Part shown: positions 18,170 to 27,878 of the stretch, in pieces
Position numbering within the stretch: the stretch's first letter is position 1
Layout: each line of letters begins with the position of its first letter
NCBI RefSeq assembly: GCF_001890385.1
Contig: NZ_CP018221.1
Coordinates: forward strand, 2,343,501-2,407,500
Origin: Tardibacter chloracetimidivorans
GTDB lineage: Bacteria > Pseudomonadota > Alphaproteobacteria > Sphingomonadales > Sphingomonadaceae
Length of the DNA stretch: 64,000 bases
Reading direction: 5' to 3'
Made by a program: the position numbers and the translations under genes
Notes under the pieces: generated by a model
What the model saw: the letters and a program-made list of their open reading frames with translations, nothing else
The model's database searches: none
What the model was told of the DNA's origin: nothing

Positions 18170-19155
18170 AGATCGAGCGGATCGCAGTCATCGGCGGAGG
18201 GGCCTGGGGAACGGCGCTGGCGCAGGTCGCGGCGACCGGCGGCCGCGAGGTGCGGCTCTGGGCGCGCGAGGCGGAGGTGGTGGACACGATCAACGACGCC
18301 CACACCAACCCGCTTTTCCTCCCCGGCATTGCGCTTTCGCCGTCGATCCGCGCGACCGGTGACCTTGGCGAACTTGACTGGGCGGATGCGCTGCTCGTCG
18401 TCGCGCCGGCCCAGCATGTGCGGACCCTGCTCGGCAGTCTTCCGCAAGGGGGCAGGCCGCTCATTCTGTGCTCGAAGGGCATAGAGGCAGGCAGCATGAA
18501 ACTGCTGACCGAGGTCGCGGCCGAAGCGCAACCGCAGGCGCCTATTGCGGTGCTGTCCGGACCCACCTTCGCCCATGAGGTCGCGCAGGGACTGCCGACC
18601 GCCATCACGCTTGCGGCGGCCGATCCGGCGCTTGCCGAGGCGCTGGTGGCGCGGCTCGCCCAGCCCACCTTCCGCCCCTATGCCTCAAGCGACCTGATCG
18701 GCGCGGAGATCGGCGGGGCGGTCAAGAATGTGCTGGCGATCGCCTGCGGCGTGGTGGAAGGCCGCGGCCTTGGCCAGAACGCCCGCGCGGCGCTGATCAG
18801 CCGGGGCTTTGCCGAGATGTCGCGGTTCGGCGTGGCCCGTGGCGCGCGGCCGGAAACGCTGGCGGGCCTGTCCGGCCTTGGCGATCTGGTGCTGACCTGT
18901 TCCTCGCAATCCTCGCGCAATTTCAGCCTGGGCTTTGGCCTTGGCAGGGGCGAGAGCGCCGCCGCGCTGATGGCCGACCGCAAGACCGTGGCGGAAGGCG
19001 CGTTCACCGCCCCCGTGCTGCGCGAGGCGGCGCATACGGCCGGGGTCGAAATGCCGATCGTCGACGCGGTGTGCGATCTGCTGGACGGATCGGAGAAAAT
19101 AGATTCGGTCGTGGAACAGATGCTCTCGCGTCCCCTAAGGACGGAAGGCGCATGA
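18166..19155 (+). CDS. gpsA: Glycerol-3-phosphate dehydrogenase [NAD(P)+]
   Basis: GpsA reduces dihydroxyacetone phosphate to sn-glycerol 3-phosphate for phospholipid synthesis. The 329-residue protein begins with a Rossmann motif (IAVIGGGAWGTALA), and carries the catalytic Lys in IGGAVKNVLAIACG and the C-terminal substrate segment GLSGLGDLVLTCSS. The start was fixed by the 4-base overlap with tsaD and the Rossmann motif position. A hairpin with a short T-run overlaps the stop codon. Confidence 0.97.
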   Translation: MKIERIAVIGGGAWGTALAQVAATGGREVRLWAREAEVVDTINDAHTNPLFLPGIALSPSIRATGDLGELDWADALLVVAPAQHVRTLLGSLPQGGRPLILCSKGIEAGSMKLLTEVAAEAQPQAPIAVLSGPTFAHEVAQGLPTAITLAAADPALAEALVARLAQPTFRPYASSDLIGAEIGGAVKNVLAIACGVVEGRGLGQNARAALISRGFAEMSRFGVARGARPETLAGLSGLGDLVLTCSSQSSRNFSLGFGLGRGESAAALMADRKTVAEGAFTAPVLREAAHTAGVEMPIVDAVCDLLDGSEKIDSVVEQMLSRPLRTEGA

Positions 19156-19247: not shown

Positions 19248-20678
19248 GTGGCGCAGCATCTAGCGCGGTTCGCGACCGGCATCGAAGGTCTCGATCGCGT
19301 CCTGAACGGCGGCCTCATTGAAGGCGCGTCCTATATCGTTCAGGGCCGTCCCGGGGCAGGCAAGACGATACTTTCCAACCAGATCGCCTTTTCGCGCGCG
19401 GCAGGGGGCGCGCGGGTGCTTTACGTCACCCTGTTGTCCGAAAGCCATGAACGGCTGTTCCAGGCGCTCGCCACGCTCGATTTTTTCGACAGAAGCAAGC
19501 TGGGCGAGGAGATCGTCTATATCAGCGTCTTTCAGGCGCTGCGCGATGAGGGGCTGGGCGCGGTCGTCAAGCTGCTTCGCCGCGAAACCAAGCGGCACGG
19601 GGCCACGCTGCTGGTCTTCGACGGCCTGTTGAACGCCCGCGACCGGGCCGACACCGATCTCGACGTCAAGACCTTCGTCGCCGAGGTGCAGAGCCAGGCC
19701 GGATTCGTCGGCTGCACCGTACTGTTTCTGACGAGCACCCGTCTGGAGGACAGCAGCCCCGAACACACCATGGTCGACGGCGTGATCGAACTGAACGAGG
19801 ATTTGTACGGCGTCCGCACCGCCCGCCGTCTTCAGGTCCGCAAGTCGCGCGGAAGCCCTGCGATCGGCGGGTTGCACAAATTCGAGATCACCAACGCGGG
19901 CATATGCGTCTATCCGCGGCTCGAGGCGGTGATGGAGCCCGCTGCGCTCAGGGACCAGCCATCGTCAGAACGCATCTCCAGCGGCTGCGCCGATCTTGAC
20001 CGGCTGACGGGAGGTGGCCTTCCGCTTGGCTCGGTGACGCTTACCGTGGGGCCATCGGGAGGCGGCAAGACCACGCTTGGCCTTCACTTTCTGAGCCGCT
20101 CCACCGTCGACGAGCCCGGGCTCCATTTCGGCTTCTTCGAAACGCCCGAACGGCTCCATCTGAAGGCCAAGGCGCTCAACATCGATCTGCCTTCCAGCGG
20201 GCTGGACATCATCTGGCACCCTTTGCAGGAACATCTGCTCGACAAGCTGGGGGAGCAACTCCTCAGTCACGTGGCCGCCCACAAGGTGAAGAGGCTCTTC
20301 ATCGACGGACTGGGCGGATTCGAGCGGGCGGCGCTCCACCGCCCCCGGCTCATGGAGTTCTTCGCCGTCCTCACCGCACGGCTGCGCGCGCTCGGCGTCA
20401 CCACAATGGCGACATGGGAGACGCGCGAACTGACCGGGGGGGAGGTCACGACGCCCGGGTCCGACATTTCCGCCATTCTCGACAATCTTCTGGTGTTGCG
20501 AACGACCGAGGAGGATCATGATCTCATCAGGTCGATTGCGATTCAGAAGATGCGCGACAGCAGCTTTGACACCCGCGCGCATCTGGTGACCTTTTCGGAC
20601 AAGGGGTTGAGCATCGGAGCACCTTTGGGCAAGCTTGGGCGTTCCGGCGCCACGGCGGCCGCGCCAAGCGATCGCTGA
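19248..20678 (+). CDS. KaiC-like tandem RecA-fold ATPase
   Basis: This 476-residue protein has two KaiC domains in tandem. Walker A motifs are GRPGAGKT (33 to 40) and GPSGGGKT (268 to 275), and Walker B-like strands are LLVFDGL (121 to 127) and RLFIDGL (349 to 355). By hand alignment to cyanobacterial KaiC, the second domain keeps the Ser of the autophosphorylation pair (ISAILDN, 407 to 413) but has Ala in place of the Thr, and keeps a KMRxS-like element (KMRDSSFD, 434 to 441). The catalytic Glu pair is reduced to single Glu residues (SES in domain 1, FET in domain 2). The start is a GTG with a strong GGAGGAAAA site. A receiver protein follows 36 bases downstream. No kaiA or kaiB is in the window, so signalling rather than a clock is likely. 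Confidence 0.85.
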   Translation: MAQHLARFATGIEGLDRVLNGGLIEGASYIVQGRPGAGKTILSNQIAFSRAAGGARVLYVTLLSESHERLFQALATLDFFDRSKLGEEIVYISVFQALRDEGLGAVVKLLRRETKRHGATLLVFDGLLNARDRADTDLDVKTFVAEVQSQAGFVGCTVLFLTSTRLEDSSPEHTMVDGVIELNEDLYGVRTARRLQVRKSRGSPAIGGLHKFEITNAGICVYPRLEAVMEPAALRDQPSSERISSGCADLDRLTGGGLPLGSVTLTVGPSGGGKTTLGLHFLSRSTVDEPGLHFGFFETPERLHLKAKALNIDLPSSGLDIIWHPLQEHLLDKLGEQLLSHVAAHKVKRLFIDGLGGFERAALHRPRLMEFFAVLTARLRALGVTTMATWETRELTGGEVTTPGSDISAILDNLLVLRTTEEDHDLIRSIAIQKMRDSSFDTRAHLVTFSDKGLSIGAPLGKLGRSGATAAAPSDR

Positions 20679-20714
20679 GGCGGCGATGCGCGCCGAAGAG
20701 GGAGCCTTCACGCC

Positions 20715-21083
20715 ATGGCGTTGATCGTCGTCGCGGACGACGAGTTCTTGCTCGCCGAGATGCTGGCCGACCTGCTGGAGGACGCCGGGCATGAAGTGCT
20801 GACCGCCTCGCAGGGCGAGGCCGCGTTGCGGCTGGTGCGCGAGCGGCGTCCGGAACTGGTCATCACCGATTTCATGATGCCGCTGATGACCGGGCTGGAA
20901 CTTGCCGAGGCCATTCGCGACGATCCCGCCGTGTCGGATATTCCCATTCTTCTCGTCAGCGGCGCGCAGGGGATGATCGCGCGGGAGCGTAGCGATCTGT
21001 TCGTCGACGTGCTCGACAAGCCTTATGACAACCGGGTGCTGATCGACCTTGTCGCGCGGCTGCTGGCGGACAGGCACGCCTGA
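20715..21083 (+). CDS. Single-domain response regulator (receiver only)
   Basis: This 122-residue protein is a CheY-like receiver with no output domain. Acidic residues Asp8-Asp9, the phosphoacceptor Asp52 (VITDFMMP), the Ser in LLVSGA and the Lys in LDKPYD are all present, so it should be phosphorylatable. The gene follows the KaiC-like gene by 36 bases on the same strand and has a GGGAG site. No histidine kinase lies nearby, so its phosphodonor is encoded elsewhere or could be the KaiC-like protein itself; the latter is only a conjecture. Confidence 0.93.
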   Translation: MALIVVADDEFLLAEMLADLLEDAGHEVLTASQGEAALRLVRERRPELVITDFMMPLMTGLELAEAIRDDPAVSDIPILLVSGAQGMIARERSDLFVDVLDKPYDNRVLIDLVARLLADRHA

Positions 21084-26571: not shown

Positions 26572-27183
26572 CTAGGCGACCCGCTTTTCGGCGTACATCG
26601 CCTTGTCGGCGCGTGCGAGCAGCGTCTTGACCGACAACGACGGGCAAATGGCGGTGACGCCGAAGGACACCGACAGCCGGTGCTCGATGCCGTCGCAAAA
26701 CAGCGGCGACCGGGCGATCCGGTCCGCGATCGAGGCGGCCCTGGCGCGCGCGTCCGCTTCCGTCAGGTTCCGGAAGACGAGCGCGAATTCGTCGCCGCCG
26801 AAGCGGGCCGCGAAGCCCCCATGCAACGATTCGCGGATGATGCGTGCGACATGGACGATGGCGGCGTCGCCCGCCTGATGGCCATGGCTGTCGTTCAGCA
26901 TCTTGAGCCGGTTCAGGTCCATGAAGACCAGCGACGCATCGCCGCCGTGCCTGCGGCAATCCTCCACCACATCTTCAAGTTCGGCCATCATGCGGCGGCG
27001 GTTGGCAAGTCCCGTCAGGCTGTCGTGGTCCGCAAGCACGCGCAGTTCGGCGATTTCCGCCCATGCCTGGACCAGCGCCTGACGCAGCCGCGCCAGTTCC
27101 TGATCCGCCCGCTGCATGACCGGCGGCAGGCTCGCGACCCGCTCGGCCAGCGCATCGGCTACGCGCCGGTCCGGCCACGACAT
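26572..27183 (-). CDS. GGDEF-domain diguanylate cyclase
   Basis: This 203-residue protein should make cyclic di-GMP. The GGDEF domain has DHDSLTGLANRRRMM at its start and an intact FGGDEFALVF active loop. The inhibitory RxxD site usually found five residues before GGDEF is absent (the stretch reads GGFAARF), so product inhibition may be lacking. The N-terminal 45 residues look helical (LPPVMQRADQELARLRQAL) and have no membrane segment. The ATG at 27183 was chosen because it follows AAAGGGG at good spacing; other ATGs at 27228 and 27390 would lengthen it toward purE. Confidence 0.88.
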   Translation of the reverse strand: MSWPDRRVADALAERVASLPPVMQRADQELARLRQALVQAWAEIAELRVLADHDSLTGLANRRRMMAELEDVVEDCRRHGGDASLVFMDLNRLKMLNDSHGHQAGDAAIVHVARIIRESLHGGFAARFGGDEFALVFRNLTEADARARAASIADRIARSPLFCDGIEHRLSVSFGVTAICPSLSVKTLLARADKAMYAEKRVA

Positions 27184-27383
27184 GTCGATCCCCTTTGCCG
27201 CTGACGGCGGTTGTCTTGAGTAATCCATGTACGCATTTTCTCTTGAACTTGTGACAACCAGAATACGCTTTGCCCCATCCGGTTCGGCTACAAATCCCGC
27301 CAATCGATGAGCTGTTGCATTGTCAGGAGCAAACGACGTGCCTAATGTCCGCGACCTTCCAGGGGGTATCTGGTCCAAGGGGA

Positions 27384-27878
27384 ATGTCATTGTCAGAACA
27401 CCGGCCCGTCGTCGGCATCATCATGGGCAGCACCTCGGACTGGGAAACCATGCGCCATGCCGATGAAACGCTGAGCGCGCTCCAGGTGCCCCATGAAGTT
27501 AAGGTGGTGTCTGCACATCGCACACCACAACGCCTTTACGACTATGCGGGTTCCGCCGTTCAGAGAGGCCTGAAAATAATAATCGCGGGCGCGGGCGGCG
27601 CGGCCCATCTGCCGGGCATGGCGGCCTCGATGACACGGTTGCCGGTGCTTGGCGTTCCCGTGGAATCCAAGGCCTTGAAAGGCATGGACAGCCTGTTGTC
27701 CATCGTCCAGATGCCCGCCGGAATCCCTGTGGGCACGCTCGCCATCGGCAAGGCGGGCGCGGTCAACGCCGCGCTGCTGGCGGCCGCAATGCTCGCCACG
27801 TCGGACGAGGCGCTGGCCGCCCGGCTGGAGGCATGGCGCAAGGCGCAGACCGATCAGGTGGCCGAACAACCCGAATGA
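27384..27878 (+). CDS. purE: 5-(carboxyamino)imidazole ribonucleotide mutase
   Basis: PurE converts N5-CAIR, made by PurK, to CAIR in purine synthesis. The 164-residue protein carries [15 protein letters not shown] and the substrate loop [12 protein letters not shown], and [11 protein letters not shown]. The start is uncertain: ATG at 27384 directly abuts the AAGGGG ribosome site, whereas a TTG two codons later (27390) has optimal spacing from it; either fits the family. It overlaps purK by 4 bases (ATGA). Confidence 0.96.

Follow-up and report, generated by a model that had tools for sequence, protein, structure and literature searches.

Relatives of KaiC that work without a clock are widespread, and in the literature that we found their mechanism is mostly not established. 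Three genomic contexts of kaiC were defined in the genome paper of Ramlibacter tataouinensis (PMC3164672, 2011). In the third of them (the "black" context), a single-domain receiver often comes after kaiC and the phosphosites are incompletely conserved. The same paper proposed that the histidine kinases of kaiC operons bind KaiC, and already noted a weak similarity of the N-terminal domain of these kinases to receiver, SasA and KaiB (PMC3164672). KaiC-REC fusions have been described in Methanosarcinaceae, covering six archaeal genera (PMC5847659). In cyanobacteria, the pseudo-receivers of KaiA and CikA act on clock proteins, that of CikA through binding of KaiB (PMC12632262, PMC6378743). KaiC-like proteins of Pseudomonas, perhaps of another family, were the subject of a study on stress and biofilm (doi 10.1111/1462-2920.16330, cited in PMC11372060). 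In a literature search that covered open-licence papers, few subscription journals and almost no preprints, we found no experiment on a kaiC-receiver pair or on an interaction of its two proteins.

The kaiC-like gene and its receiver

The window, a 64-kb stretch of the Tardibacter chloracetimidivorans genome, encodes a KaiC-like double ATPase of 476 amino acids with a GTG start (P0001; 19248..20678, + strand; two PF06745 domains, 3.5e-56) and a free receiver (response regulator) of 122 amino acids with an ATG start (P0002; 20715..21083, + strand; PF00072, 5.5e-20). According to the ORF positions, 36 bases separate the kaiC-like stop from the receiver start. This arrangement was already described in 2011 as the third kaiC context (PMC3164672). 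Upstream of the pair, a glycerol-3-phosphate dehydrogenase gene (gpsA) on the same strand ends at 19155, and downstream of the receiver lies a citrate-type transporter gene on the opposite strand. Further downstream, at a distance of about 5.5 kb from the pair, lies a GGDEF diguanylate cyclase gene (26572-27390, - strand). The two genes of the pair have GC contents of 0.64 and 0.65, the window as a whole has one of 0.66, and GC3 is similar; a recent foreign origin was therefore rejected on composition. No sigma-70-like promoter site was found at the pair, and a hairpin after gpsA, considered as a terminator, folded no better than shuffled copies (z 0.39). An EcfG-type general stress response promoter was also considered and dropped: with a motif taken from general knowledge and upstream pieces anchored at the first start codons, it was found in 0/42 alphaproteobacterial loci and in 39/2100 random pieces, and the window has no such motif upstream of the pair.

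The ATPase is a member of the KaiC superfamily (PF06745), having two KaiC domains over the cut-off and a KaiC fold. The best PDB matches of its predicted structure (pLDDT 84.1, pTM 0.82) were KaiC crystal structures (TM 0.82, E 1.1e-38, 25% identity). The CI Walker A motif, GRPGAGKT (residues 33-40; 19344..19367, + strand), keeps G33, P35, G36, G38, K39 and T40 in 83/83 members each, as does the CII motif, GPSGGGKT (residues 268-275; 20049..20072, + strand), for G268, G271, G273, K274 and T275. The C-terminal tail is short, with 19 residues after residue 457.

It is known that E318 of KaiC activates T432 and S431 for phosphorylation, that phosphoryl transfer is missing in the E318A mutant, that E319 binds Mg, and that K457 and R459 reach from the next subunit to act on the ATP of its neighbour (PMC2777353). 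A HMMER alignment to solved KaiC places F297 and E298 (20136..20141, + strand) on E318 and E319, and S408 and A409 (20469..20474, + strand) on S431 and T432; K434 and R436 (20547..20555, + strand) align with K457 and R459. Among 91 aligned members of the receiver-linked family, the residue equivalent to E318 is Y in 74, F in 16 and T in one, so that Glu is absent from all, while the equivalents of E319, K457 and R459 are present in 91/91. Since the Glu aligned with E318 is missing throughout, KaiC-style autophosphorylation has probably been lost in this family. Nucleotide binding would be kept, and hydrolysis probably as well, although the ATPase activity may also be weakened, given that roles in ATP turnover are assigned to both Glu of each KaiC pair (PMC2777353). 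In CI, a single Glu, E65 (19440..19442, + strand; E in 91/91 rows), corresponds approximately to the second Glu of KaiC E77/E78, and residue 64 is A in 68 and S in 23 members (S64 in the window); this correspondence involves a one-residue insertion relative to KaiC that was placed by eye. For the rows of the KaiC type linked to kinases, the alignment was faulty at the CI Glu, and these columns were left unused.

At the phosphosite, the pair of residues is SS in 57 of the 91 members, SA in 17, LS in five and SG in three, the remainder being other pairs. Among 83 members, the position of Ala409 is occupied by Ser in 65 and by Ala in 15, and in the clade of the window (15 rows) the pair is SA in 14 and SG in one. 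By this alignment, Ala409 is a trait of the window's clade and not of the whole receiver-linked family. The frequent SS pair is not explained by a loss of autokinase activity.

The receiver has D9 and E10 as the acidic pair, Asp52 as the phospho-acceptor (20868..20870, + strand), S82 and K102. Therefore, the acidic pair, Asp, Ser/Thr and Lys of a phosphorylatable receiver (PF00072) are all present. D9, E10, D52, K102 and P103 are invariant in 83/83 receivers, including that of the window. The family also has a signature of its own, namely 21 positions at which at least 85% of the members share one residue that fewer than 40% of 51 other receivers carry; the latter were drawn from the same loci and the window genome and are not a neutral sample of all receivers. 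Six signature positions (A84, Q85, R90, F96, V99 and D101) lie within residues 84-101, which we take, going by CheY topology, to be the alpha4-beta5 side. This side of receivers is a common docking face.

The sequence-only reading had reported intact Walker A motifs in both domains, a conserved CII Ser followed by Ala in the place of the second Thr, one Glu per domain where KaiC has two (here E65 and E298), and a receiver with intact Asp52 located 36 bases past the ATPase. The ORFs, the translations and the HMMER alignment agree with these statements, and the alignment puts no Thr at the phosphosite. Thus, the observation of a KaiC-like ATPase with a free receiver is correct, and it is beyond chance, because the same gene order was found in 82/82 loci and D9, E10, D52 and K102 in 83/83 receivers.

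Histidine kinases and a possible switch

Searches with kinase cores located a histidine-kinase ORF within 500 bp of the pair in 47/80 loci and no adjacent one in 33/80; these cores were partly drawn from neighbours of the pair, so that dissimilar, distant kinases may have escaped the search. When whole kinases, which are able to match receivers, served as queries, the counts were 49/80 and 48/80; the core-based count is the one used here. By flank shell, kinase ORFs numbered 55/158 at 0-500 bp, 57/158 at 500-1000 bp and 57/157 at 1000-1500 bp, then 17/156 at 2000-2500 bp and 13/153 at 3000-3500 bp, and finally 9/152, 6/150, 4/144 and 3/141 in the far shells between 4 and 7.5 kb. The adjoining kinases occur on both sides of the pair and in both orientations, and belong to the HWE or the HisKA type (best match HisKA 32, HWE 22; 54 matches). 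In Novosphingobium lindaniclasticum (L066), for example, the order is kaiC, receiver, HWE kinase. Ten picked neighbour kinases were all confirmed by Pfam (10/10). In a clustering of neighbours, the most widespread cluster was histidine-kinase-like (38 loci). A third conserved gene beside the pair was rejected; the next clusters covered at most 12 loci, and several were runs in the same eight Pseudomonas loci.

The kinase searches found no histidine kinase within the 64-kb window, so that the linked kinase for which the sequence-only reading had recommended a search is not beside the pair in this genome. Most of the window's close clade likewise has no nearby kinase. The window genome has six HWE matches, one of which belongs to a second kaiC operon, where kaiC, an HWE kinase gene and a receiver ORF succeed one another (L009:7218-10572, at about 3.079-3.083 Mb). 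A kinase gene comes directly after kaiC in 26/29 loci of this second KaiC type. Pfam alone reported no receiver at the N-terminus of the second-operon kinase of the window genome. The N-termini of 24 such kinases, however, form a receiver-like profile, which hhalign matched with a probability of 96.7% to the receiver family of the pair and of 98.8% to other receivers (controls: 20 column shuffles, 0.0-2.9%; a reversed copy, 0.2%; four pieces of KaiC, 0.1-0.8%). Because generic receivers are matched better, we claim a shared fold only and no special kinship. The place of the Asp is occupied by Glu in 20/24 and by Asp in 2/24, and that of the Lys by Arg in 23/24. In both contexts, the sequence immediately after kaiC thus encodes a receiver fold, as predicted by these profiles. 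Upstream of the second kaiC (L009:4570-7057) are a flavohaemoglobin-like gene with globin and NAD-binding domains, a Rrf2-type regulator and a 148-aa ORF with no Pfam match; a link of the second operon to nitric oxide or iron is possible.

The scheme that we favour, as a tentative but quite plausible one, is a two-component switch with a KaiC-type ATPase as its output. A sensor histidine kinase, encoded beside the pair in many relatives and elsewhere in the window genome, would phosphorylate Asp52 of the receiver. Once phosphorylated, the receiver would dock on the KaiC-like ATPase, which is probably hexameric, and would thereby change the ATPase cycle or the assembly of the ring. The KaiC-like ATPase, itself presumably devoid of self-phosphorylation in the style of clock KaiC, would then act on some further target. 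On the side of observation are the conserved pair, the residues kept in the receiver and at the nucleotide-binding sites, the lost equivalent of E318 and the kinases adjacent in 47/80 loci. From these we infer the phosphotransfer, the docking, the signalling direction, the hexamer and the loss of kinase activity. The signal likely runs from the kinase through the receiver to the ATPase, opposite to the earlier idea. Phosphate on the receiver more likely comes from histidine kinases, since such kinases adjoin the pair in more than half of the loci, and the recurrent presence of dissimilar kinases nearby agrees with a receiver that draws its phosphate from them. It could just as well be that the ATPase acts on an adjacent kinase.

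The earlier idea was that the ATPase signals through the receiver. Its conserved two-gene module holds (82/82 loci, Mantel r 0.873; see below), whereas a KaiC-type passing on of phosphate does not agree with the absence of Glu at the E318 place in 91/91 members or with the kinases that adjoin 47/80 pairs. In its general form, with the KaiC-like ATPase upstream, sensing ATP or redox state or phosphorylating itself and signalling to or through the receiver, this alternative seems to us rather unlikely. The conserved pair, Ser408 of the window and the SS pair in 57/91 members are in its favour, but all 91 members have Y, F or T in the place of E318, the kinases beside the pair provide another phosphate source, and we are aware of no case in which a KaiC protein has been demonstrated to phosphorylate the Asp of a receiver.

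Alternatively, the ATPase might tune a kinase-receiver phosphorelay, as KaiC does through SasA, with the receiver as output to other proteins. The kinases adjacent in 47/80 loci are consistent with this, as is the kinase that follows the other KaiC type in 26/29 loci, such kinases having been proposed to bind KaiC (PMC3164672). On the other hand, 33/80 loci have no adjacent kinase, and the types and positions of the kinases vary (HisKA 32, HWE 22) while the receiver is constant, which makes the receiver the likelier direct partner of the ATPase. We regard a tuned phosphorelay as improbable.

The favoured switch can be extended to the second KaiC type. Because a receiver fold stands directly after kaiC in both contexts and the pseudo-receivers of KaiA and CikA act on clock proteins, the receiver fold may be a general handle of two-component systems on non-clock KaiC-type ATPases, free and phosphorylatable on a kinase-dead KaiC in one lineage, and in the other mostly devoid of its Asp and joined to the N-terminal end of an HWE kinase. 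This extension is possible, though we consider it doubtful. If it is true, the pair would represent the version that can be switched, the state of the ring being set by phosphorylation of the receiver and not of KaiC.

Conservation and inheritance of the pair

The sequence-only reading depended on conservation of the gene pair in relatives, and such conservation was found. A receiver ORF directly follows kaiC in 82/82 scored loci, which are the best 80 of 178 relatives (52-69% identical) and two further ones, L011 and L087 (Sphingobium sp. SYK-6) apparently being the same genome. It also does so in 14/14 further, mostly more distant loci, comprising three alphaproteobacterial loci (48, 44 and 40% identical) and eleven plasmid loci; for the plasmids, 14 of 32 matched records were sampled, two of which were outside the family (29 and 31% identical) and one of which, the unannotated L144, was left out. 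Some family members reside on large plasmids (L131, L137, L139), of which some are typed as conjugative and have transposase or integrase genes next to the pair. In four Burkholderiaceae loci (L103, L112, L116, L126), a second receiver-like ORF comes after the first.

The pair occurs in Alpha-, Beta- and Gammaproteobacteria, and the distribution of the receiver-linked family is patchy. In Sphingomonadaceae, 3/249 genomes, including that of the window, have a clear member (100, 66 and 43% identical), the next best proteins being 34-35% identical; at the class level, 4/385 genomes, again including that of the window, have a member at E 1e-50. In a tree of 121 rows, made by a quick method with an arbitrary root and several long branches, a branch with an SH-aLRT support of 98 separates the 91 receiver-linked proteins from 30 other KaiC-like proteins. 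A histidine kinase follows most of these 30, one of which is encoded in the window genome. This outgroup is narrow, because the 30 proteins are mostly from the window's own bacterial family. The kinase-linked group of the tree (HKctx) is not pure: no kinase was found adjacent in L015, and a diguanylate cyclase follows in L138. The window clade (15 rows, support 98) contains sphingomonads, four Alcaligenaceae and one Rhodobacteraceae. This mixture in the tree suggests that the gene pair was transferred between classes.

The distance matrices of receiver and ATPase were highly correlated (Mantel r 0.873, 82 rows), and 0/2000 permutations gave a value as high. Judging from gene order and these distances, the two genes are a conserved, jointly inherited module. 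Shared descent alone would also yield a high Mantel r, a point in favour of two neighbours that travel together with no physical interaction. Such a companionship is very unlikely in our opinion: strict adjacency is maintained in all scored loci, including the clade that mixes Alpha- and Betaproteobacteria, and is kept on plasmids whose other neighbours differ.

Comparison with known KaiC systems

A KaiC-type timer, hourglass or clock, to which the KaiC fold and the two KaiC domains would be suited, is extremely improbable, given that equivalents of E318 and T432 are absent, that the protein scored far below the cut-offs of the clock KaiC models (98.6 against 546.25 bits for the circadian model TIGR02655, 163.1 against 408 bits for NF006799), and that the search for kaiB recommended by the sequence-only reading gave 0 matches to KaiB (PF07689) at E 0.001 in the window genome, which is 96.85% complete. 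The window ATPase shares with cyanobacterial clock KaiC the fold, the two KaiC domains and the equivalents of K457, R459 and E319. It differs from clock KaiC by the lack of the E318 and T432 equivalents, by an identity of only about 25% and by its short C-terminal tail.

The family is a minimal system of two small, strictly paired proteins, in which the phosphate switch has apparently moved from the ATPase to the receiver. The pair makes the control of a KaiC-type ATPase in the absence of KaiA and KaiB approachable with purified proteins, and lends itself well to studying how proteins of the KaiC type function when no clock is involved.

The kaiC - histidine kinase operons (the second context of PMC3164672) resemble the window pair in that a double ATPase is directly followed by a receiver-fold domain. 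In those operons, however, the receiver-like domain forms one protein with an HWE kinase, whereas the receiver of the window pair is free, and the KaiC proteins of the two types are about 30% identical across a supported branch. KaiC-REC fusions (PMC5847659) likewise couple a receiver to a KaiC-family ATPase, but as one archaeal protein instead of two separate bacterial ones.

The closest described system is the third context (PMC3164672), to which the pair is matched by gene order and phosphosites. As there, the window kaiC is followed by a single-domain receiver and has no kaiB context, and its S/A phosphosite corresponds to SA among the listed types. That context was called heterogeneous, with one or no phosphosite as a rule, whereas SS is the commonest pair in the present family (57/91); the receiver was said to follow frequently, whereas here it follows in every scored locus. 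To the 2011 description, the present analysis adds the family-wide loss of the Glu aligned with E318, the receiver signature, and the receiver fold predicted right after kaiC in both contexts.
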